Positions 1,309 to 32,194 of a stretch of DNA of 32,897 nucleotides are shown here, piece after piece. The notes below the pieces were generated by a model that worked only from the letters and a program-made list of their open reading frames with translations, was not told the DNA's origin and made no database searches. Position numbers and translations under genes: made by a program. Source of the stretch: Candidatus Borkfalkia excrementavium (lineage in GTDB: Bacteria > Bacillota > Clostridia > Christensenellales > Borkfalkiaceae); contig DXCO01000029.1 in NCBI GenBank assembly GCA_019115945.1, positions 1 through 32,897 on the forward strand, read 5' to 3'. Position 1 is the stretch's first letter. The number at the start of each line of letters is the position of its first letter.

Positions 1309-2595
1309 TTGGTTACGTTTGCAAACGGAATTCATCCCAAAGGCTGTAAAGAACTGTCCGGGGATCAGGCGATCGGGCGGGGCCCCGATCCGCAGTTTTT
1401 GTATGTGCCCCTGACCCAGCATATCGGCGCGCCCGCGCAGCCCGCAGTCGGTGCGGGCGAGCGCGTAAAGAGGGGGCAGTTGATCGCCCGCGCGGCGGAA
1501 GGGCTTTCCGCCAACGTGTATTCGCCCGTGTCGGGCACCGTTCAGGGCGTCGTTCAGCACATAACCCAATCGGGGAAAAAGCGCGATCATATCCTCATCG
1601 AAAACGACTTTTCCGATGAGAGCGTCTCTCTGCCGCCGCTTGGCGAGATCACGGGCGGCAGTGTCCTTTCCCGCATCGCGGAAGCGGGCATCGTGGGTAT
1701 GGGCGGCGCGGCTTTCCCCACGGCGGCAAAACTGAATACGGGGGAGAAAAAGGTGGACGTGCTCGTCGTCAACGGCGCCGAGTGCGAACCGTACATCACG
1801 TGCGATTACCGCATCATGCTCGAATACGCGCCCGAGATCGTCAAGGGCGTGCGTTTTGCCATGCTCGCGTGCGGGGCGGAACGCGCCGTCATCGGCATCG
1901 AAGATAATAAGCCGGACGCGATCCGCACGATGAGCGGAGCCGCGGAGGGAAATGTTTCGGTAAAGCGCCTGAAAACGAAGTACCCGCAGGGCGCGGAAAA
2001 GCAACTCGTCTACAGTTGCGTGAAAAGGGTGATCCCCGAAGGCAAACTGCCCGCGGACGCAGGCGTTGTCGTCGTCAACGTGCATACGGCGCTGGCGATT
2101 TATAAGGCAGTCGCGGAAAATACGCCCTGTTACGAGCGGGTGATGACGGTGAGCGGAAAAGGGGCGGAAAGGCCCTGCAACATCTGGGTGAAAAACGGCA
2201 CGCCGTACCGCGATCTTGCGGAATTTTGCGGCGGCAGCGAAGATTGCGCCCGCATCGTGGCAGGCGGGCCGATGATGGGGGATCCCGTCTTTTCCCTGAA
2301 AGTATGCACGGGGAAAGGCTCTTCCTCCCTGTTGTTCCTCAGCGAAAGCGAGTGCGAGAGCAAATCCGCAAGCGTATGCATCGGATGCGGCAGATGCGTT
2401 GCGGCGTGCCCCATGGGGCTTTCTCCCGTATTTATCGAGCGCGCGCTGTTCGATAAAAATTACGAGGAAGCAAAGTGGTACGGCGCGGAATCGTGTATCG
2501 GATGCGGGTGCTGTTCTTACGTCTGCCCCGCAAAAAGATTTTTGGTGCAGAGCGTCAAACTTGCGAAAAAAACGATCAAGGAGAAAGGGCTGTAA
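1309..2595 (+). CDS. rnfC: Rnf electron transport complex subunit C
   Basis: A 428-residue peripheral subunit of the ion-translocating ferredoxin:NAD+ oxidoreductase. In the known complex RnfC carries the NAD(H)-reacting site on the cytoplasmic face. The N-terminal half has the soluble Nqo1/RnfC-type fold, with glycine-rich stretches such as GIVGMGGAAFPTAAKL and NGAECEPYITCDYR. The C-terminal part has two ferredoxin-type motifs, CIGCGRCVAACP (Cys357, 360, 363, 367) and CIGCGCCSYVCP (Cys396, 399, 402, 406), which fit two [4Fe-4S] clusters. The start is TTG 1309, placed 6 bases after a GGGAGGAAGG site. It opens the rnfCDGEAB operon, and its stop overlaps the rnfD start in TAATG. Confidence 0.95.
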   Translation: MVTFANGIHPKGCKELSGDQAIGRGPDPQFLYVPLTQHIGAPAQPAVGAGERVKRGQLIARAAEGLSANVYSPVSGTVQGVVQHITQSGKKRDHILIENDFSDESVSLPPLGEITGGSVLSRIAEAGIVGMGGAAFPTAAKLNTGEKKVDVLVVNGAECEPYITCDYRIMLEYAPEIVKGVRFAMLACGAERAVIGIEDNKPDAIRTMSGAAEGNVSVKRLKTKYPQGAEKQLVYSCVKRVIPEGKLPADAGVVVVNVHTALAIYKAVAENTPCYERVMTVSGKGAERPCNIWVKNGTPYRDLAEFCGGSEDCARIVAGGPMMGDPVFSLKVCTGKGSSSLLFLSESECESKSASVCIGCGRCVAACPMGLSPVFIERALFDKNYEEAKWYGAESCIGCGCCSYVCPAKRFLVQSVKLAKKTIKEKGL

Positions 2596-4775
2596 TGGCG
2601 GAAATCAAAAATTACAAAGTGGCGATCTCTCCGCACAAACTCGATTCCGATACGACGCGGCGCCTCATGCTCGACGTGATCATCGCGCTGTTGCCCTGCC
2701 TCGTGTGCGGCGTCCTCTTTTTCGGGCTGTATGCGCTCCTGCTCGTCGTTATCTGCACGGCGACCTGTTTTGTAAGCGAACAGATCTACAATCTGCTCCG
2801 CAAAAAGCCGCTCACCTTCGATCTTTCGGCGGTCGTTACGGGGCTGATCCTGGGGCTGAACCTTCCCGCGCGTGCGCCTTGGTATATTCCGATCGTCGGC
2901 GGCGTGATCGCGATCATTTTCGTCAAAATGTTTTTCGGCGGCCTCGGCAAAAACTTTGCCAACCCCGCCGCCACGGCGCGCGTCTTTCTGCTTTTGGCAT
3001 ACGGCAGCGTCATGGCAAAGTATATCGGCGCGGATATTTCGGGGAATTTTCTTGCCGACGGCACGACTTCCGCCACGTATCTCGGCGGCGGCGTATCCGC
3101 CCTTGCCGGTAACTTTTTCGGCGTAAGGGGATATTGGGGCAATGTTCTGCAACTCTTTTTCGGCTACGTAGGCGGCTGTATCGGAGAGACCTGCGTGCCC
3201 GCGATTCTGGCGGGCGGGGCATATCTGATCGCGCGCCGCGTCATAGATTGGCGCATTCCGCTCGTCTATCTTCTTACGGCGGCGTTCATGACGCTCGTCT
3301 GTTTTCAGTCGGCGGGCGAAATCCTTTTGCAACTTTTCTCCGGAGGGCTCATGTTCGGTGCGTTTTTCATGGCGACCGATTACGCGACTTCCCCGAAATG
3401 GAAGATCAACAGGATCCTGTTTGCGTTCGGTCTCGGCGTGCTCACGGTGCTCATCCGCAGGTTCGGCAGTTTTCCCGAGGGCGTTTCGCTGGCCATACTG
3501 TTCATGAATCTGCTCGTCCCCGTGATGGACAGATATCTCGTGCCCGTGCGTTTCGGCCAGCAGACGAAGAGCGGCCGCCCGAAACCGCAGATCATGAAAT
3601 GGCTGATGCGCGGCCTGTGCGTCGCAATGGCGCTTGTTCTGGCGATCGCGGTTCCCGTCATGGCGCCGGCGGAGTGGCGGGAATATAAAAATTCCCGCAC
3701 CGAAGTGGAGATCCCCGCTTCGTACGAGTATGTCCGCTCTTTCTCCCTCGACGCATTCGGAAATTTCTATTTCGATACGGAAGATTCCCTGCAGGTGCCC
3801 GGCGGACAGGAAGTAAAGTTCACCATCGGGATCGGGACCGATTATCTCGTTTCCGATATAGTGCCCGAAGAACAGAGCGACCGTTATACGGCGGAACTCT
3901 CGCTCTTCCTGCATAAATCGTACAGCCAGATTTCCGGTCTGCAAGGGGATCTGAATACGGGGGCGACAGTCGTCAATACCTCCCTGAAAAATATGATCCT
4001 CGAATGCTATAAAGTCATCAACGATTCCGGCTATGCCAATCGCAACTATCCGGTCCGCGATGCGTATGCATACGTCGATTCGCATGCGCGCGCGGGATTC
4101 GGCGGCGAAGAGATCTTCGGCGTTTCCTCAACGATCACCATCCGCGAAGGGGTACAGCAGGATCTGAAATTCATCGTCCGGCTCGCGGACGGCAAAGTTT
4201 CTTCCGTTCTGCCCGTAGAACAGAGCGGAAGGTGGCAGGCGTCTTTGGCGCTCTTCCTCGGCAAGACGTATGCGGAGGTCGCCGCGATCTCCGACCTGCA
4301 GGCGCCGGGCGCGGGGGCGGACGGCGTCGTCTCGGCGACGAAAACGAACACCGCCCTCAAAAACATGATTCTGGAATGTTTCCTCGCGTCCGATCTGAAC
4401 GCGGATGCGTATACCGTCGGCTCTGCAGAATATGTGCAGGCGGCGGGTGCTTCCGCTCTGTTCGGCGGCGTTTCCTTCCTTGCGGGAGGGGAAGCGTACC
4501 TTGCGGAATACGATTACCGCCAGCCGCTCGCTTTTTATATCAATCTTGCGGAGGACAGGGTCGCAAACATTATCCCCATCACGCAGAGTACCGTTGGCTT
4601 TACGGCAGAACTTTCCTTCTTCCTCGGCAAGACGCGCGCAGAGATCTTTGCGCTGACCGATCTGGGCACGGGCGACGCGACTTCGTCCGCCACGCGCATG
4701 AATACGGCGCTCAAAGGAATGATCCTCGAATGTTTCGATCTTTTGGAAAATTTTGCGGGAGGTGACGCGCAATGA
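2595..4775 (+). CDS. rnfD: Rnf subunit D with three C-terminal RnfG-like repeats (extended RnfD)
   Basis: A 726-residue protein, about twice the usual 300-350 for RnfD. Residues 1 to about 325 form the standard multi-spanning RnfD core, including DGTTSAT at 155-161, which fits the covalent FMN attachment site (Thr161). An extra membrane helix follows at about 337-357. Then come three repeats at about 377-477, 491-600 and 611-717, sharing a V..I.P.EQS block, an FLGKT-type block and a terminal T/SAT...NTALKNMILECF block. They resemble the extracytoplasmic FMN-binding domain of RnfG. Candidate acceptor threonines are Thr458 (DLNTGAT), Thr582 (DGVVSAT) and Thr700 (DATSSAT). The start is the ATG inside TAATG at the rnfC stop; a longer upstream reading would run through rnfC. 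The rnfG start overlaps its stop (ATGA). RnfD identity is certain; the repeat function is inferred. Confidence 0.93.
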   Translation: MAEIKNYKVAISPHKLDSDTTRRLMLDVIIALLPCLVCGVLFFGLYALLLVVICTATCFVSEQIYNLLRKKPLTFDLSAVVTGLILGLNLPARAPWYIPIVGGVIAIIFVKMFFGGLGKNFANPAATARVFLLLAYGSVMAKYIGADISGNFLADGTTSATYLGGGVSALAGNFFGVRGYWGNVLQLFFGYVGGCIGETCVPAILAGGAYLIARRVIDWRIPLVYLLTAAFMTLVCFQSAGEILLQLFSGGLMFGAFFMATDYATSPKWKINRILFAFGLGVLTVLIRRFGSFPEGVSLAILFMNLLVPVMDRYLVPVRFGQQTKSGRPKPQIMKWLMRGLCVAMALVLAIAVPVMAPAEWREYKNSRTEVEIPASYEYVRSFSLDAFGNFYFDTEDSLQVPGGQEVKFTIGIGTDYLVSDIVPEEQSDRYTAELSLFLHKSYSQISGLQGDLNTGATVVNTSLKNMILECYKVINDSGYANRNYPVRDAYAYVDSHARAGFGGEEIFGVSSTITIREGVQQDLKFIVRLADGKVSSVLPVEQSGRWQASLALFLGKTYAEVAAISDLQAPGAGADGVVSATKTNTALKNMILECFLASDLNADAYTVGSAEYVQAAGASALFGGVSFLAGGEAYLAEYDYRQPLAFYINLAEDRVANIIPITQSTVGFTAELSFFLGKTRAEIFALTDLGTGDATSSATRMNTALKGMILECFDLLENFAGGDAQ

Positions 4776-5320
4776 CTGCAAAAGTAAAATCCATGCTGCA
4801 ATGCATCCTCGTTCTGGCCGTCATCGCGCTTGCCAGCGGTGTTCTCCTCGGCGCGGTGCATGTCCTTACCTATGTCGATCCCTTTCAGGCGACCCTTGAC
4901 TTTTTCAAGGAGGAAAGCGGGGCGGAGGGCGATTTTGAAATGATCGTGGAAAAGGAAACGTCCGTCGACGGAACGAGCGGAAGCATCGTCTATTACGCGC
5001 GTTCCACAGACGGCGTGCACGCCTTCCTCGCAAAGGGCAACGGCGGATACGGAGGGGAAAGGGTCCCCGTTTACGTGTTTATCAAAGAGGGGACGATCAC
5101 AAAGGTCGCTCCGGGCGATTATACGCAGCAGACCTTTATGGACGAACTTGAAAAAGGCTTTTACGATCAGTTTGTGGGCAAAGACGTCGCGACGCTGAAA
5201 CCGCTGGAAGCGGATACCGTATCCGGCGCGACCATGAGTTCCACGGCGGTCAGAAACGCAATCGACGCCGTCGTTGCCTATTACAACGGGAACGTATCGG
5301 GAGGGGAGAGCAATGGATAG
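4772..5320 (+). CDS. rnfG: Rnf electron transport complex subunit G (covalent FMN)
   Basis: A 182-residue protein with one N-terminal membrane helix (about residues 8-30) and an extracytoplasmic FMN-binding domain. The ApbE-type attachment motif DTVSGATMSS places the covalent FMN on Thr154. In the known complex, RnfG passes electrons between the flavin of RnfD and the rest of the membrane part. The ATG overlaps the rnfD stop as ATGA and is preceded by GGAGGTGACG. Its C-terminus overlaps the rnfE start by 8 bases. Length is normal for the family. No apbE flavin transferase gene is present in this window, so it must be encoded elsewhere. Confidence 0.95.
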   Translation: MTAKVKSMLQCILVLAVIALASGVLLGAVHVLTYVDPFQATLDFFKEESGAEGDFEMIVEKETSVDGTSGSIVYYARSTDGVHAFLAKGNGGYGGERVPVYVFIKEGTITKVAPGDYTQQTFMDELEKGFYDQFVGKDVATLKPLEADTVSGATMSSTAVRNAIDAVVAYYNGNVSGGESNG

Positions 5321-5990
5321 AAGAAAACTCAAAGATACCTTTCTCGGCGGTATCATAAAAAACAATCCCACGTTCGTGCTCGTTTTGGGCACCTGTCCGA
5401 CGATCGCGATGACGACCAGCCTTTTTCAGGCCTTCGCGATGGGCGTTGCCACGATGTTCGTGCTCGTCTTTTCCAACCTGTTTGTCAGCCTTTTGCGCAA
5501 TCTCATTCCCGACAAGGTGCGCATTCCGTGCTATATCGTGATCATTTCGACCTTTGTCATCATCGTGCAGATGGTCATGCAGAGGTATCTTCCCGACCTG
5601 TACAGCACGATGAATCAGTTTATAACGCTGATCGTGGTCAACTGCATTATCCTGGCGCGTGCAGAAAGTTTTGCTTCCTGCAATAAACCCCTTTACAGCG
5701 TCGTCGACGGGCTGTCCATGGGGCTCGGGTTTACGGGAGCCCTTTGCCTGATCGGCATCATCCGCGAATTTTTTGCGGGCGGCTCCTTTGCAGGAATGTC
5801 GATCCCTGGTTTTCCCGTGATGGATACGAACGGCGCGAAAGCCTTCGGTTTCATCGTGTTCGGCTGCCTGATGGCTCTGTTCAATTTCGTGATTCAGAAA
5901 CTCAACGAACGCAAGGAAAAGATGAAAAAGGCGTCTCTGCCCCTTTCGGACGGCAGGGTGGAAGAACTGAAAGAAGGAGGTGCGCAATGA
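5313..5990 (+). CDS. rnfE: Rnf electron transport complex subunit E
   Basis: A 225-residue integral membrane subunit with about six hydrophobic helices. The family signature near the N-terminus (NNPTFVLVLGTCPTIAMTTS) and NCIILARAESFA in the middle are characteristic of RnfE/NqrD. RnfE and RnfA form an inverted pair that holds a cluster in the membrane of the ion-translocating core (established for the family). The start is ATG 5313, after GGGAGGGGAG, and it overlaps the end of rnfG by 8 bases. The earlier in-frame start inside rnfG has no ribosome site. The tail (about 35 residues) is charged and cytoplasmic. Confidence 0.95.
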   Translation: MDRRKLKDTFLGGIIKNNPTFVLVLGTCPTIAMTTSLFQAFAMGVATMFVLVFSNLFVSLLRNLIPDKVRIPCYIVIISTFVIIVQMVMQRYLPDLYSTMNQFITLIVVNCIILARAESFASCNKPLYSVVDGLSMGLGFTGALCLIGIIREFFAGGSFAGMSIPGFPVMDTNGAKAFGFIVFGCLMALFNFVIQKLNERKEKMKKASLPLSDGRVEELKEGGAQ

Positions 5991-6574
5991 CCGTTTCCAT
6001 CATATCTTTGATGTTCGCCGCCGTCATATCGGATAATATAGTGCTGTCGCAGTATCAGGGGATCTGTCCTTTCCTCGGCGTTTCCAAAAAAATTTCGAGC
6101 GCGGCTGGAATGGGGTTTGCCGTCATATTCGTCATGGCGATCTCCTCCGTATTCACGTATCTGCTCTACAACTATGTGCTCGTGCCGCTGGAAGTCGGCT
6201 ATCTTTACACGATGGCGTTCATTCTCGTGATCGCCAGCCTCGTACAGATCACCGAAATGATCGTAAAGAGGTTTTCTCCCACCCTCTACAGCGCTTTGGG
6301 CGTATATCTTCCTCTGATCACGACCAATTGCGCAATATTGGGCACGGCGAAGGCGCTTGTCGTTCCGCAGATATACAATTTTGTCTACACGTTCGCCATA
6401 TCCGTCGCGACGGGGGTCGGATTTTTGTTTGCCATCGTTCTTCTCGCGTGCGTGCGCCTGAAAACGGACAGGGCGGATATTCCGAAATGTTTCAAAGGCT
6501 TTCCGATCACGCTGATCACCGCGGCGATCATGGCAATGGCGTTCGCCGGTTTTTCCGGCATACTGGCGGGGTGA
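5987..6574 (+). CDS. rnfA: Rnf electron transport complex subunit A
   Basis: A 195-residue integral membrane subunit, typical RnfA length, with six hydrophobic segments. Conserved features include the N-terminal SDNIVLSQYQGICPFLGVSKK segment and the mid-protein TTNCAILGTA, which mirrors the NCIILARAE of RnfE and carries the cysteine implicated in the intramembrane iron centre. It starts at ATG 5987, overlapping the rnfE stop as ATGA, after an AAGGAGG ribosome site. It should pair with RnfE in the ion-translocating core of the complex. Confidence 0.95.
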   Translation: MTVSIISLMFAAVISDNIVLSQYQGICPFLGVSKKISSAAGMGFAVIFVMAISSVFTYLLYNYVLVPLEVGYLYTMAFILVIASLVQITEMIVKRFSPTLYSALGVYLPLITTNCAILGTAKALVVPQIYNFVYTFAISVATGVGFLFAIVLLACVRLKTDRADIPKCFKGFPITLITAAIMAMAFAGFSGILAG

Positions 6575-6582
6575 AGTAAACT

Positions 6583-7377
6583 ATGAATACGATCGTTCAA
6601 ATCGCCGTTGCGGGCGGCGTCATGCTCGCCATAGCGCTGGTTTTCGGCGTCATCCTCGTCATCTGTTCCAATGTTTTTGCCGTCAAAAAGGACGAGCGCA
6701 TCGAAAAGGTGGAAAATCTTCTCGCAAAGTCCAACTGCGGCGGCTGCGGCAAGGCGGGCTGCGCGCAGTTTGCGGAAGCGCTCGTAAAGGGAGAGGCAAA
6801 ACTTTCCGACTGCCGCGCCACGCCCGCGGCCAACAAAGAAAAAATTGCGCAGATTTTGGGCGGCGGAGAGATCGGGGAAGACACGGTCGCCGTCGTGCAT
6901 TGCTGCGGCGGAAACGCCTGCTACAACAAATACGATTATCAGGGCTACGGCAACTGCGCCTCGTGCGAACTGATCGCGGGCGGCATCAAGGCGTGTCCGG
7001 TCGGCTGTATCGGAAAAAAGACCTGTTCCGATGTCTGTGCGTATTATGCCATCGACGTGGGCGACGGCGGCTATTCTGTCGTGGACAAAGAAAAGTGCGT
7101 TTCCTGCGGGGCATGCATTTCCAATTGTCCGAAAGGCATCATCGGCCGCATCCCTAAAAATGCCAAAGTGTATATCGCCTGTTCCAATCACGGAAAGGGC
7201 AAAGACGTCATGGAACTGTGCAAAAACGGATGCATCGCCTGCGGCCTGTGCGCAAAGACGTGCCCTGTCGGCGCGATCGCCATGAAGGACGGCCTGCCCG
7301 AGATCGATTATACGAAATGCATCGGCTGTATGAAATGCGCACAAAAGTGCCCGCGCGGCTGCATAAAGGGGCATTAA
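6583..7377 (+). CDS. rnfB: Rnf electron transport complex subunit B (ferredoxin-reacting)
   Basis: A 264-residue iron-sulfur protein that accepts electrons from reduced ferredoxin in the known complex. It has an N-terminal membrane anchor (about residues 5-30), then the Fe-S domain CGGCGKAGC with Cys52, 55, 60 and 77. Several further cysteine motifs follow: CASCELI...CPVGC, CVSCGACISNCP, CIACGLCAKTCP and CIGCMKCAQKCP. It ends shortly after the last motif, without the long tail of some clostridial forms. It starts 8 bases after rnfA, with only a weak ribosome site (GGGGTGAAG). It is the last rnf gene. Confidence 0.95.
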   Translation: MNTIVQIAVAGGVMLAIALVFGVILVICSNVFAVKKDERIEKVENLLAKSNCGGCGKAGCAQFAEALVKGEAKLSDCRATPAANKEKIAQILGGGEIGEDTVAVVHCCGGNACYNKYDYQGYGNCASCELIAGGIKACPVGCIGKKTCSDVCAYYAIDVGDGGYSVVDKEKCVSCGACISNCPKGIIGRIPKNAKVYIACSNHGKGKDVMELCKNGCIACGLCAKTCPVGAIAMKDGLPEIDYTKCIGCMKCAQKCPRGCIKGH

Positions 7378-25514: not shown

Positions 25515-26666
25515 ATGGCAAGAATGGTACTCAACGAAACGAGTTATTTCGGCGCCGGCTGCCGCAAAGAAGTCGCGGGAGAACTTGCGCGCCGCAACAT
25601 GAAAAAGGCGTTTGTCGTAACGGACAAAGATCTGGTCAAATTCGGCGTTGCCAAAAAGGTGACGGACGTGCTCGACGAGGCGAAAGTCTCTTACGATATT
25701 TTCGACGACGTCAAAGCGAATCCGACGATCGCAAACGTGAAAAACGGACTTGCCGCTTTCAAAAAATCCAAGGCGGACGTCATCATCGCGATCGGCGGCG
25801 GCTCCGTCATCGATACGGCCAAAGCCATCGGCATCATTGCGGAAAACCCCGAGTTTGCGGACGTGAAGTCCCTTGAGGGCACGGCGGACACGAAGAACAA
25901 GAGTTTCCCCGTCATCGCTTTTGCGACGACGTCCGGCACCGCGGCGGAAGTTACGATCAACTACGTCATCACTGACGAAGAGGCGGGCAGAAAACTCGTC
26001 TGCGTCGATCCCAACGATATGCCCCTCATCGCGTTCAACGATGCGGAGATGCTCATGAGCATGCCCAAGGGGCTGACGGCAGCGACGGGCATGGATGCGC
26101 TCACGCACGCGATCGAGGCGTACATCACGCCCGGCGCGACGCCCATTTCTGACCTTCTGACCTGGAACAGCATCAAATTTATCGCAGAAAACCTTGAAGC
26201 CGCGGTCAAAGACGGCAGCAACGCCTCCGCGCGCGAGGGGATGGCTTACGGCTCGTACGTTGCGGGCATGGCGTTCTCCAACGTCGGTTTGGGCATCGTG
26301 CATTCCATGGCGCACCCGCTCGGCGCACGCTACGATATTGCGCACGGCGTCGCGAACGCACTGCTTTTGCCGTACGTCATGGAGTACAATAAACCCGCCG
26401 CTCTCAAAAAGTTCGGCGACATCGCCCGCGCGATGGGCGTAGACGTGAAGGGCATGAGCGACGATGAGGCGGCCGATGCCGCGATCGAGGCTGTCCGCAA
26501 ACTGTCCAAGGCGATCGGGATCCCTCAGAAACTGCACGAACTGGGCATCAAGGAAGAACAGTTGAAACAACTTTCCGAAGATGCGTTCATCGATCCCTGC
26601 ACGGGCGGCAATCCCCGCAAAACCTCCCCTGCGGAAATTCTCGAAATTTACAAAAAAGCCCTTTGA
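25515..26666 (+). CDS. fucO: Iron-dependent alcohol dehydrogenase, lactaldehyde reductase type
   Basis: A 383-residue group III (iron-containing) alcohol dehydrogenase. It matches lactaldehyde:1,2-propanediol oxidoreductase (FucO) along its length: MVLNETSYFG near the start, the cofactor loop IAIGGGSVIDTAKAIGII, FATTSGTAAEVTINYVITDEE, the iron ligands in ATGMDALTHAIEAY (Asp, His), VHSMAHPLGA and AHGVANALLLP (His), and the C-terminal CTGGNPR. In known pathways it reduces lactaldehyde from fucose or rhamnose to 1,2-propanediol. No other fucose or rhamnose genes are adjacent, so it may serve a broader alcohol role. It has its own promoter and terminator. Confidence 0.9.
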   Translation: MARMVLNETSYFGAGCRKEVAGELARRNMKKAFVVTDKDLVKFGVAKKVTDVLDEAKVSYDIFDDVKANPTIANVKNGLAAFKKSKADVIIAIGGGSVIDTAKAIGIIAENPEFADVKSLEGTADTKNKSFPVIAFATTSGTAAEVTINYVITDEEAGRKLVCVDPNDMPLIAFNDAEMLMSMPKGLTAATGMDALTHAIEAYITPGATPISDLLTWNSIKFIAENLEAAVKDGSNASAREGMAYGSYVAGMAFSNVGLGIVHSMAHPLGARYDIAHGVANALLLPYVMEYNKPAALKKFGDIARAMGVDVKGMSDDEAADAAIEAVRKLSKAIGIPQKLHELGIKEEQLKQLSEDAFIDPCTGGNPRKTSPAEILEIYKKAL

Positions 26667-26676
26667 TTTTAGAAAT

Positions 26677-26715
26677 AAAAGGCGCCTGCACACGAAAGCG
26701 TGCAGGCGCCTTTTT
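26677..26715. terminator. Terminator between fucO and the pentapeptide gene
   Basis: A 15-base-pair stem (AAAA plus GGCGCCTGCAC, 26677-26691, with GTGCAGGCGCC plus TTTT, 26700-26714), with a T5 tail at 26711-26715. The AAAA side allows it to act on both convergent transcripts. Confidence 0.9.
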
Positions 26716-26736
26716 GTATGTGGCAGGGGAACCCCT

Positions 26737-27360
26737 TTATTCCACGTCTATGCCGAGCGCGCGCAGAAAGGCCGCGGATTGCAGAAGTCCGATCTTAGCG
26801 CCCTTGAGTTCGGACAAGGATTCCGAAATTTCTATGCCGGAGATATCCGAATCGCAAAGATCCAGCCCCTTCAGCGGCGTGCGGAAAAAATTCACGCGGG
26901 CAAAACAGCATTTTTCGACGGATACGTTTTTCATTTGCGCCATGGCGATGTCCGCGCCCCTCAGGTTGCATTCCGAAAGCGACAGGGCATTGAATTTCTG
27001 TGCGTTGAAATTCGCATAGGACAGGTTGCAGTCTTTGAAAGACGCATCCCGCAGCGCGCCTTCAGAAAAATCTGCGCCCACGCCTTTGCAGCCGACGAAC
27101 TGCACTCTGCGGAAGCACGCTTTGGTAAATTTTGTGCCCGACAGATTGCAGTTTTCAAAAATCGCGTCCGAAACATCCGCGCCGCGAAAATCCGCGTCGC
27201 TGAAATCGCAGTTATCGAATATGCATTCGGCGATCTCGGCCCCGCCGTATGCCGCTTTTGCGGCGTTCAGCCGGCTCAAGCGCAGGCCTTCGGTGCGTTC
27301 CGCATCGAGCGCGCCGCCCTCGCGTACGGGCCCCGAAAATTTAGGAGAAAGAATGTTCAT
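26737..27360 (-). CDS. Pentapeptide repeat protein (Qnr-like)
   Basis: A 207-residue protein built of A(D/N)(L/F)XX-type pentapeptides (CDFSDADFRGADVSDAIF, CNLSGTKF, ANFNAQKF, CNLRGADI and others), which fold into a right-handed beta-helix mimicking DNA. The length, the central break and a C-terminal ELKGAKIGLLQSAAFLRALG helix recall Qnr-type proteins that protect DNA gyrase. That role is only suggested. The start is ATG 27360. A GTG further upstream (27387) lies inside the promoter spacer and cannot be used. No ribosome site is present, since the ATG is six bases from the -10 box, which points to a leaderless mRNA. Confidence 0.82.
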   Translation of the reverse strand: MNILSPKFSGPVREGGALDAERTEGLRLSRLNAAKAAYGGAEIAECIFDNCDFSDADFRGADVSDAIFENCNLSGTKFTKACFRRVQFVGCKGVGADFSEGALRDASFKDCNLSYANFNAQKFNALSLSECNLRGADIAMAQMKNVSVEKCCFARVNFFRTPLKGLDLCDSDISGIEISESLSELKGAKIGLLQSAAFLRALGIDVE

Positions 27361-27366
27361 ATGCTC

Positions 27367-27395
27367 ATTATATGGCCTCTGGCGCACTTTGTCAA
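27367..27395 (-). promoter_or_regulatory. Promoter of the pentapeptide gene, no leader
   Basis: On the minus strand, perfect TTGACA (27390-27395) and TATAAT (27367-27372) with a 17-base spacer. Six bases (GAGCAT) separate the -10 box from the ATG, so transcription should start at or beside the start codon. Confidence 0.8.
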
Positions 27396-27406
27396 GGTCT
27401 TATATT

Positions 27407-28174
27407 TTATTTGTTGTTCATATGTATATAAAAAAACTTATTGCGATATTGCGTCGGCGTTATTCCTTCGTGATATTTGAAAAATTTTACGAAAAGATTT
27501 TCCTCTTCAAATCCGCAGTTCGCAGCGATCTCTTTGATCGAATCGTTTGTATTGATGAGGACAGACTCTATATACGAAATGCGATGTTTGATGATTCCCG
27601 CTTTCAGATCCATTCCGAATTCTTTTTTATAAATGCGGGACAAGTAGTCTGTACTATACCCGAAATGGCTTGCAACGGCCCTTGCAGTGAGCGGCCGGCT
27701 TGAAAGAATGCGGATATATTCGTTCGCTTCAAAGGCAATCTTGTTGCGGTATTCGGTGGAAGTGTTCAAGGACAGCAGAAATTTTGCGAGCGTAAGTTCG
27801 CACAATAACAGATTTGATTTTGAAAAATGCATGATTTCCTTAAAACTGCGTTCGGTATTGGGGGCAGCCGGCGCGCATAATTTCGGAATGCCAAAAAACG
27901 GTAAATCGTTTGTGCAGAAATGCAACCAAAAGAAAGAGGTATGTCCGGTACTGATTTCTGTGCCCGCATGTTCGAGGTTCGGTTCGAGAAGCAGCATTTC
28001 CCCTTTGCGGAAGGAATATATGTTTTTCTCTTCTCGGATGCAAATTTCCCCCTCTGTAACGTAGATCAGTTCGTAACTGTCTATTACTCTTTTCGGGTGC
28101 GTCCATACACTTTCGGTATCGAACAACCCCATCCCCATGTAAGAAAGCGTCGCAGAATTATTGAATGCAATCAT
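27407..28174 (-). CDS. AraC-family transcriptional regulator
   Basis: A 255-residue regulator. The N-terminal half is a cupin-like sensor domain (SYELIYVTEGEICIREE, FRKGEMLLLEPNLEH). The C-terminal half has two helix-turn-helix motifs: LTARAVASHFGYSTDYLSRIYKKEFG and SIKEIAANCGFEEENLFVKFFKYHEGITPTQYR. ATG 28174 is chosen because AAAGGTG lies 12 bases upstream; a GTG at 28189 is an alternative. It is divergent from the GH127 gene with overlapping promoters, so it most likely controls that gene in response to a sugar. The DNA here is visibly AT-richer than the flanks. Confidence 0.9.
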   Translation of the reverse strand: MIAFNNSATLSYMGMGLFDTESVWTHPKRVIDSYELIYVTEGEICIREEKNIYSFRKGEMLLLEPNLEHAGTEISTGHTSFFWLHFCTNDLPFFGIPKLCAPAAPNTERSFKEIMHFSKSNLLLCELTLAKFLLSLNTSTEYRNKIAFEANEYIRILSSRPLTARAVASHFGYSTDYLSRIYKKEFGMDLKAGIIKHRISYIESVLINTNDSIKEIAANCGFEEENLFVKFFKYHEGITPTQYRNKFFYIHMNNK

Positions 28175-30210: not shown

Positions 30211-31275
30211 TTATTTCAAGACGACTTCATGGCCTGTCTTTGCCGATTCATACACAGCGTCGAGAATGCGCATGATCTCAATGCCGTCGTCGGCGGTGGA
30301 AATAAGATCCTGTTCTCCTTTGATCGCGCCGACAAAATTGGCAAGTTCCGCGGCAAACTCCGATCCGTCAAATCCGGTGCGGGAAGCAAAGCGGATATCC
30401 GACATCCTGTTTTCGGTCACGGTGTGGAACACGAGATCGGGGTCGATGGTGATGCCGCCCTTCGTTCCGAACAGTTCGACTTTGCCCTCGTCTTTTTCTA
30501 CGTTCAGGCTGTAACTCGTTTCTACGGTCAGCGTGCTGCCGTTGTCGAAGCGGATCATGGCGCATGCGAGATCTTCCACGTCGCACACGTCTTCTTTTCC
30601 GCGGTAACTGGCCGAAACGTAAGCCTTTCTGTCTGCCAGCTCCTCGCGGTTATAAAGTTTCGTATAAGTCGCGCCGTATACGGATACGGGTTTGGGATTG
30701 CCTTCAAGATAGCGCACCAGGTCGATCACGTGCACGCCGAGGTCGATGAGCGGTCCGCCGCCCGAGCGGGCTTTGTCCGAAAACCAGCCGCCGGGGTTGC
30801 CGTTGCGGCGTATGTAGGTCGCTTTCGCGTAATAGATGTCTCCCATCTGTCCGTGCGCGATCAGGTCTTTCGCAAGCGCCGCGTCTTTGCCGAAGCGGCG
30901 GACGAACCCGATGCCGAGTATTTTTCCCGCCTTTTTCGCCGCAGCGCGCATCTCTTCCGCCTGTTTCGCGCTCATCGCCATGGGTTTTTCGCAGAAGACG
31001 TGTTTGCCCGCTTCCAGCGCCATGATAGAGCAGGGGGCGTGTCCGTTGTTCCAGGTGCACACGCTCACCGCGTCCAGTTCGGGCAGTTCTGCAAGCATCT
31101 TTTTTTCATCTGTATACAGGCGCGTGATGCCGTATTTTTCACCCTTTTCGTGCAAAATCTTTTCGTCGATATCGCAAAACGCGTACAGTTCGCAGTCGGG
31201 ATTGCTCAGATATCCCTCGATATGGCAGGAGGAAATGTTTCCCACGCCGATCACGCCGATCTTCAATTTACTCAT
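30211..31275 (-). CDS. Gfo/Idh/MocA-family oxidoreductase
   Basis: A 354-residue NAD(P)-dependent sugar or inositol dehydrogenase-like enzyme. It has the Rossmann start KIGVIGVGNISSCH, the family EKP motif (VFCEKPMAMSAKQAEEM) with the catalytic Lys, and GGGPLIDLGVHVIDLVRYL with Asp and His of the active site. The ATG at 31275 uses a GGAGG site formed by the last codons of the upstream isomerase gene, 3 bases away. The two genes thus form a translationally linked operon, a pairing common in sugar and polyol catabolism. The substrate is unknown. Confidence 0.9.
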   Translation of the reverse strand: MSKLKIGVIGVGNISSCHIEGYLSNPDCELYAFCDIDEKILHEKGEKYGITRLYTDEKKMLAELPELDAVSVCTWNNGHAPCSIMALEAGKHVFCEKPMAMSAKQAEEMRAAAKKAGKILGIGFVRRFGKDAALAKDLIAHGQMGDIYYAKATYIRRNGNPGGWFSDKARSGGGPLIDLGVHVIDLVRYLEGNPKPVSVYGATYTKLYNREELADRKAYVSASYRGKEDVCDVEDLACAMIRFDNGSTLTVETSYSLNVEKDEGKVELFGTKGGITIDPDLVFHTVTENRMSDIRFASRTGFDGSEFAAELANFVGAIKGEQDLISTADDGIEIMRILDAVYESAKTGHEVVLK

Positions 31276-31278
31276 GAT

Positions 31279-32118
31279 TTAACCTCCGATATGTTTTTTC
31301 AGGAAAGAGACGGCCGCCGCAATATCTTTGGAAGGCGTGTCTCCGCACTCGCGCTCGATGGTCAGATACCCGTCGTATCCGATCTCTCTGAGCGCGGCAA
31401 TGTAATCGTTCCAGGGTACGCCGCCCTCGCCCAAAGGCATCTCTTTGATATGTTCGCCCCAATCGGCCTGTTCCAGCCCGAAATAAGAGGGGGCATAAAG
31501 GGTGCGCGTATCCGATTTTTTGAGCATGATCCCGTCTTTTGCGTGCGTATGCACGATATAATCTTTCAGTACGCGCACCGATTCGGCGGGGTTGTCTCCC
31601 GCGCACATGACGAGGTTCGCGGGGTCAAGGTTGACCGCCACGCCGCGGCTGCCCAGACCGTCCAGGAATGCCTTGAGGCGTACGGCCGTTTCGGGTCCCG
31701 TTTCCACGGCAAAATGTCCGCCCATGGAATCGGCAAACTCCGCAAGTTCGCGGCAGACGAGGTGCATGCTTTCATATTGCGGGCAGTTTATTTCTTCGGG
31801 CACGACGCCGATATGCGTGGTCACGATATCCGTTCCCAGTTCTTTTGCGATTTCCATGATCCGCTTTTCCCGGTCGATGAGCGCGCGGTCTTTCGTATAA
31901 TACATGGCGCAGCCGAAATCGCCGCACAGCGCCGAAACTTCCAGCCCTTCTCCCTCCAGCATGCTCTTGACTTCGCGCACATTTTCCCTGGTCATTTTTT
32001 CGTGCACCGTCTCGGAATTTGCGTACATCTGCACGCCGTTCACGCCGAGTGCGGCCGCTTCCTTCACCGCTTCCGCAAACTTTTTGCGGAAACTTTCCAA
32101 AATAACGCCTATTTTCAA
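31279..32118 (-). CDS. Sugar phosphate isomerase/epimerase (xylose isomerase-like TIM barrel)
   Basis: A 279-residue TIM-barrel protein of the AP endonuclease 2/xylose isomerase-like family. Metal-binding residues fit Glu in FAVETGPET, Asp in VNLDPANLV, His in VHTHAKDG and Glu in LTIEREC. It starts at TTG 32118, since a GGAGG site lies 9 bases upstream and no ATG is near. It is the first gene of the pair with the oxidoreductase and probably isomerises or epimerises a sugar or inositol derivative; the exact reaction is unknown. It is driven by a promoter overlapping the terminator of the AraC gene upstream. Confidence 0.87.
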   Translation of the reverse strand: MKIGVILESFRKKFAEAVKEAAALGVNGVQMYANSETVHEKMTRENVREVKSMLEGEGLEVSALCGDFGCAMYYTKDRALIDREKRIMEIAKELGTDIVTTHIGVVPEEINCPQYESMHLVCRELAEFADSMGGHFAVETGPETAVRLKAFLDGLGSRGVAVNLDPANLVMCAGDNPAESVRVLKDYIVHTHAKDGIMLKKSDTRTLYAPSYFGLEQADWGEHIKEMPLGEGGVPWNDYIAALREIGYDGYLTIERECGDTPSKDIAAAVSFLKKHIGG

Positions 32119-32165
32119 TTTTCAGATCCTCCGTTTCTTTTTCCCCTGATGCGGGGATCGCTTTT

Positions 32166-32194
32166 ATTATAAAAAAAACCGCGGCGGAAAGCAA
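32166..32194 (-). promoter_or_regulatory. Promoter of the isomerase-oxidoreductase operon, inside a terminator
   Basis: On the minus strand, TTGCTT (32189-32194) and TATAAT (32166-32171) with a 17-base spacer. The -35 box lies in the loop of the upstream terminator and the -10 box follows its T run. A small hairpin (TCCCC/GGGGA, 32142-32157) lies in the leader. Confidence 0.6.

Follow-up and report, generated by a model that had tools for sequence, protein, structure and literature searches.

The stretch of DNA analyzed here, referred to as the window, comprises 32,897 nucleotides from the gut bacterium Candidatus Borkfalkia excrementavium (contig DXCO01000029.1). It carries an rnfCDGEAB operon with all genes on the + strand (Table 1), in which the start of rnfG overlaps the stop of rnfD by 4 bases. 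Just upstream of this operon, two adjacent small genes (257-739 and 753-1148) match the C-terminal half and then the N-terminal half of TauE/SafE, i.e., in reversed order, and possibly encode a split, two-subunit exporter. Two open frames located elsewhere in the window (26581-27480, 299 aa; 30229-32172, 647 aa) had no Pfam match and are regarded as putative genes. RnfD is 726 residues long versus about 300 to 385 residues in relatives outside the genus. Its core passed the thresholds of both RnfD family profiles (PF03116, 338 bits for a cut-off of 27.7; TIGR01946 rnfD, 267 bits for a cut-off of 207), and the model of this core matched the solved RnfD structures of A. woodii (9eri_D, Z 29.7) and C. 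tetanomorphum (7zc6_D, Z 27.5). The usual flavin site of the core, DGTTSAT, agrees with the D..[ST].AT pattern.

Table 1. Features of the rnf operon and of the extended RnfD in the window
Feature	Position	Strand	Evidence
rnfC	1309..2595	+	TIGR01945, 471.9 bits
rnfD	2595-4775	+	ATG start, 726 aa
RnfD core (NQR2_RnfD_RnfE, PF03116), residues 9-321	2619..3557	+	Pfam E 6e-101
Usual flavin site of the RnfD core, DGTTSAT, residues 155-161	3057..3077	+	Position
Extra transmembrane helix, residues 337-359 (approx.)	3603..3671	+	AlphaFold helix 332-366
FMN_bind-like repeat 1, residues 377-472	3723..4010	+	Repeat profile E 2e-25
Repeat 1 motif DLNTGAT, canonical Dxx[ST]GAT	3948..3968	+	Motif definition PMC12052999
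FMN_bind-like repeat 2, residues 491-596	4065..4382	+	Repeat profile E 2e-29
Repeat 2 motif DGVVSAT, relaxed flavinylation-type	4320..4340	+	Position
FMN_bind-like repeat 3, residues 611-714	4425..4736	+	Repeat profile E 9e-39; model pLDDT 90.2; RnfG best match
Repeat 3 motif DATSSAT, relaxed flavinylation-type	4674..4694	+	Position
rnfG, separate, 182 aa, one FMN_bind	4772..5320	+	Pfam FMN_bind E 2.5e-7, 31.7 bits
RnfG flavin motif DTVSGAT	5213-5233	+	Position
rnfE	5313..5990	+	Rnf-Nqr E 2.4e-57
rnfA	5987..6574	+	Rnf-Nqr E 1.7e-52
rnfB	6583..7377	+	FeS + Fer4 domains

The core is followed by an extra helix (hydropathy 2.45), flanked by a charge of +5 on its N side and -1 on its C side, and then by a tail of three repeats of ~105 residues displaying 42-44% identity between adjacent copies. 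A preliminary description of this DNA had proposed an RnfD core with an additional membrane helix, which is borne out by PF03116, by TIGR01946, and by the hydropathy and charge profiles. The three repeats that it placed at residues 377-477, 491-600, and 611-717 closely agree with the boundaries obtained with the repeat profile. The blocks that it listed as common to the repeats were correct and were found in the sequence, but a key block was missed, namely, the flavinylation-type motif located just before NTALKNM. Since the tail was found in 30 relatives, a chance or assembly origin is ruled out.

A search of 60 related genomes revealed a tailed RnfD in the majority of those from this genus, including Candidatus Borkfalkia avistercoris, stercoripullorum, and faecigallinarum (the genus belongs to the order Christensenellales in the NCBI taxonomy). 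The tail was present in all 30 Candidatus Borkfalkia RnfD proteins examined, with 1 to 5 repeats. Complete proteins contained one (n=7), two (n=14), three (n=3), four (n=3), or five (n=1) repeats, and two further proteins were truncated at contig ends. No match to the repeat profile was obtained in the other 17 genera sampled from the family, in 390 further genomes of the class, or in 397 genomes of the phylum. RnfD was detected in nine other genera of the family, mostly as frames of about 315-404 residues. Several candidates for additional tailed proteins were rejected: the longer frame of G087 was open upstream only, the long RnfD-containing frames opened in other genera were fusions to a whole RnfG or upstream-open frames, and L115, L123, and L137, which had resembled tailed RnfD in the search, each have an RnfD of the usual kind with a gene for a two-domain RnfG after it. 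The search for the same fusion in related genomes, suggested in the preliminary description, therefore uncovered it genus-wide and nowhere outside the genus among the genomes sampled.

Scanning of the window's own RnfD tail with Pfam and NCBIfam gave no relevant match, and FMN_bind was not detected even at an E value of 10. We therefore turn to the family, for which 62 repeats were taken from the 30 RnfD proteins and 61 were aligned (alignment A1). Pfam FMN_bind (PF04205) matched 18 of these 61 repeats at E<=1 (best, 3.7e-5), with only 4 matched by the next family, and the RnfD tails of two relatives exceeded the curated FMN_bind cut-off of 22 in a whole-genome scan (24.9 and 22.4 bits). Profiles built from RnfG only were kept free of tail repeats, an iterated RnfG profile having been discarded because it had absorbed them; at E<1e-3, they detected 6 of 30 tails when built from the same genus and 3 of 30 when built from other genera. 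Profile-profile comparison by hhalign of the tail with RnfG gave P values of 1.5e-5 and 3.6e-6, with D..tSAT aligned on D..SGAT and the motif Thr of the repeat in register with the flavin Thr of RnfG. Conversely, the repeat profile reached the window's own RnfG (E 0.004). Used against the sequences of solved structures, this profile retrieved nothing beyond a brief spurious alignment with a designed repeat protein.

The AlphaFold model of repeat 3 had a pLDDT of 90. Its best VIA-align match was RnfG from C. tetanomorphum (7zc6_G, Z 9.9, rmsd 2.6 over 101 residues), and the five best rows, including RnfG from A. vinelandii (Z 8.8) and domain 1 of CbFMN4 (fifth, Z 8.6), were all RnfG or CbFMN4; IscU was the first unrelated fold (Z 7.7). 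Foldseek alone ranked CbFMN4 domain 1 on top with an E value of 0.29, which is below significance and is read only together with VIA-align. The likeness to the FMN domain of RnfG proposed in the preliminary description is thus supported by Pfam in relatives, by hhalign, and by the structural match to RnfG; a lack of any FMN_bind match or a fold unlike that of RnfG was looked for and did not occur. Together, the family sequence evidence and the predicted structure support the assignment of the tail repeats to the FMN_bind domains, as divergent relatives of the one in RnfG. With respect to the definition of multi-flavinylated proteins as containing more than one FMN_bind domain (PMC8238504), RnfD of the window has three repeats according to the family profile and none according to Pfam directly. 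The repeats share QSTMGY where many RnfG proteins read ETPGLG. Across A1, the last helix of the repeats has a nearly invariant Met...Glu-Cys (M..xECF) close to its end, which is missing from the window's RnfG; this conserved Cys of an outward domain is probably involved in buried packing.

In a tree, all 61 repeats formed one clade (100/100) separated from every RnfG by a long branch (2.3 changes per column), although few columns were available. This separation, together with the retention of a separate rnfG, led us to reject the possibility that the tail is a fused copy of RnfG. Across the genus, RnfG retains its flavin site, which varies slightly in two species; the tail is thus an addition. 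RnfG of this genus is itself divergent (TIGR01947, 18.7 bits versus a cut-off of 102; FMN_bind, only 31.7 bits). Adjacent repeats were nearly identical in some proteins (repeats 2 and 3 of L007, 95% at the DNA level; repeats 2 and 3 of L005, 92% at the protein level), indicating that repeats are still being gained. The dN/dS ratio of orthologous repeats (~0.2-0.8) reflects purifying selection, weaker than that acting on the RnfD core.

The target motif of the flavin transferase ApbE is Dxx[ST]GA[ST], FMN being attached to its last residue (PMC12052999). The Asp of this motif was conserved in 62 of 62 repeats and the Ala-Thr pair in all 60 repeats that are complete across the motif; of the two others, one, in the five-repeat homologue, lacks the Thr, and the other is interrupted by the end of its contig. 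The repeats are overall only about half identical, yet D....AT is constant. Invariance of Asp, Ala, and Thr amid such divergence is the pattern expected for flavin attachment. The strict form Dxx[ST]GAT occurred in 13 repeats and DxxTSAT in 33, the Gly being replaced by Ser in 47 of the 62. In another ApbE target, replacement of the motif Gly by Ala lowered flavinylation to ~50% (PMC12052999), which counts against full flavinylation of the relaxed form. DxxSSATP was the commonest core flavin site among the RnfD proteins examined in other Clostridia; by analogy, this suggests, rather than proves, that Ser is tolerated in place of the motif Gly.

The source genome contains one apbE gene (191.5 bits), whose product has a lipobox-like LFGC sequence near its N terminus, and ApbE was detected in 36 of 37 Borkfalkia genomes. 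The sole apbE gene adjoins genes for a NusG_II (NusG domain II) protein and an Hpre_diP_synt_I membrane protein (L032:283-2517), neighbors that may belong with flavinylation. A single secreted ApbE lipoprotein would attach one FMN per repeat on the last Thr of D....AT, the predicted flavin residues of the tail being Thr458, Thr582, and Thr700.

RnfD consists of two inverted five-helix halves with the FMN on the outer side of the membrane (PMC9588780). In 30 of 30 proteins, the 20 residues on the N side of the extra helix had a charge of +2 to +7 and the 15 residues on the C side a charge of -2 to +1. Because the charge is positive before the extra helix and nearly neutral or negative after it, the tail should, as judged from the sequence, be extracytosolic, where ApbE works. 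The added helix, the eleventh, would present the array of FMN_bind domains at the external membrane surface.

Multi-flavinylated RnfG, in some cases with (multi-)haem domains, is known from Christensenellales and has been proposed to provide a second electron route to outside acceptors (Meheust et al. 2021, PMC8238504). The system described here resembles it in having several predicted FMN_bind domains external to the Rnf complex, an ApbE, and the same bacterial order (PMC8238504). It differs in that the extra domains are not on RnfG, which is a one-domain protein in Borkfalkia, but on RnfD behind an added helix, and in that these domains are divergent and mostly missed by Pfam. RnfG with two to four FMN_bind domains was also seen in other Clostridia in which RnfD is ordinary (L039, L043, L091, L118, L090, L102, L106, L098, and L165). 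RnfD-RnfG fusions were detected in other Christensenellales families (L034, 109-1791; L163, L164, L167, and L168; frames of 526-570 aa). As in Borkfalkia, an RnfD core, an added helix, and FMN_bind are combined in one chain, the FMN_bind domain of L034 exceeding the cut-off; however, the partner in these fusions is a complete RnfG in one copy, whereas Borkfalkia retains a separate rnfG. The Borkfalkia repeat profile matched none of the five fusion tails. These fusions, for which we found no description in the literature searched, are a precedent for the addition of an outward domain to RnfD by means of a helix.

Tandem extracytosolic FMN_bind domains are also found in the beads-on-a-string proteins SaFMN3 and CbFMN4 (PMC10339131; PMC11334425), which are separate proteins, unlike the Borkfalkia array, which is built into an ion-pumping membrane subunit. 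Multi-FMN_bind proteins have been purified with every site filled (PMC10339131). In the NQR/RNF-like two-subunit systems, a membrane domain of the NqrB/RnfD type is likewise extended by a domain at its C terminus (PMC8238504, PMC11334425), but the added domain is cytosolic and NAD binding, and the RnfD-like part of these systems has no flavin site. Among the mostly open-access papers covered by our literature search, none described an RnfD that bears additional FMN_bind domains while rnfG is kept as its own gene. Thus, multi-flavin RnfG is already known, and the new element, as far as we found, is that RnfD has a multi-flavin tail and RnfG is still present.

In the outer part of the normal Rnf circuit, electrons pass from the iron of RnfAE to the FMN of RnfG and then to the FMN of RnfD. 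The flavins tethered to RnfD would adjoin this outer half of the electron path and be fed from RnfG or RnfD. With its three tail flavins added to those of the RnfD core and RnfG, the complex would contain five covalent flavins instead of the usual two. The tail is probably an outward, covalently tethered multi-flavin chain that draws electrons from the Rnf flavins or buffers them, flavinylation and electron flow both being predicted. Electrons at the outer Rnf flavins would pass on to the tethered domains and from there either move on to an acceptor beyond the membrane or be kept as a reserve. Because copy number varies, a chain or store is favored over a fixed docking partner, and we infer that an outward branch or electron reserve is the most likely role of the tail. 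The extended external flavin relay that the preliminary description proposed for the repeats is plausible but putative. No electron acceptor was found in the genome, which is ~90% complete, and this speaks against a dedicated outward route; neither a further FMN_bind protein nor an extracytosolic fumarate reductase-like protein was seen in it. The one strong FAD_binding_2 match, considered as a fumarate reductase acceptor, was rejected, as it corresponds to NadB encoded between NadA- and NadC-like genes. More tentatively, and with greater doubt than for the tail itself, the Rnf complex of Borkfalkia might be both an ion pump and a conduit for extracellular electron transfer, in which an RnfD flavin wire evolved once from FMN_bind and had its length (one to five flavins) set by tandem duplication across species.

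A flavinylated tail could instead work inside the normal Rnf circuit, as additional tethered shuttle heads or as an electron buffer returning electrons to RnfD and NAD+, with no outside acceptor. RnfG swings between RnfAE and RnfD via small contacts (PMC9588780), tethering to RnfD places the repeats beside its path, function tolerates 1 to 5 copies, and the failure to find an outside partner in a genome ~90% complete fits such a role. However, no replacement shuttle is needed where RnfG and its flavin site are retained, and docking of the repeats in the place of RnfG is not obvious considering their distance from it (2.3 changes per column) and the presence of QSTMGY versus ETPGLG. We consider this explanation unlikely, although it is the most credible of the three alternatives weighed here.

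The two others question the flavins or the fold. The repeats might have kept the FMN_bind fold but lost the flavin and now act structurally, for instance by touching the cell wall or by covering the outer face of RnfD, as could be suspected from the relaxed motif of most copies, the lack of a Pfam match for the window's own tail, a dN/dS ratio above that of the core, and free variation in copy number. This is improbable, since the Asp, Ala, and Thr of the motif are constant in 60 of 60 complete repeats while other positions diverge, and 13 repeats, including repeat 1 of the window, have the strict motif; the occurrence of ApbE in 36 of 37 genomes also argues against it, although this enzyme might be present for RnfG and the RnfD core only. 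That the repeats adopt another alpha/beta fold, e.g., that of IscU, whose structures scored just under RnfG (Z 7.7), is hardly credible, since three sequence tests favor FMN_bind/RnfG and none IscU, FMN_bind matching 18 members and the next family 4.

The Rnf complex is usually viewed as a closed circuit in which electrons run from ferredoxin to NAD+. If its ion-translocating subunit carries a flavin chain, this circuit would have a tap on the outer side, and energy conservation would be coupled directly to external acceptors or to a store of electrons. The repeats also illustrate that divergent members of the flavinylated type escape profile-based surveys. Because chains in this single genus naturally range from one to five domains and RnfG is retained alongside, the genus offers a ready-made test series for the number of flavins that a relay of this kind requires.
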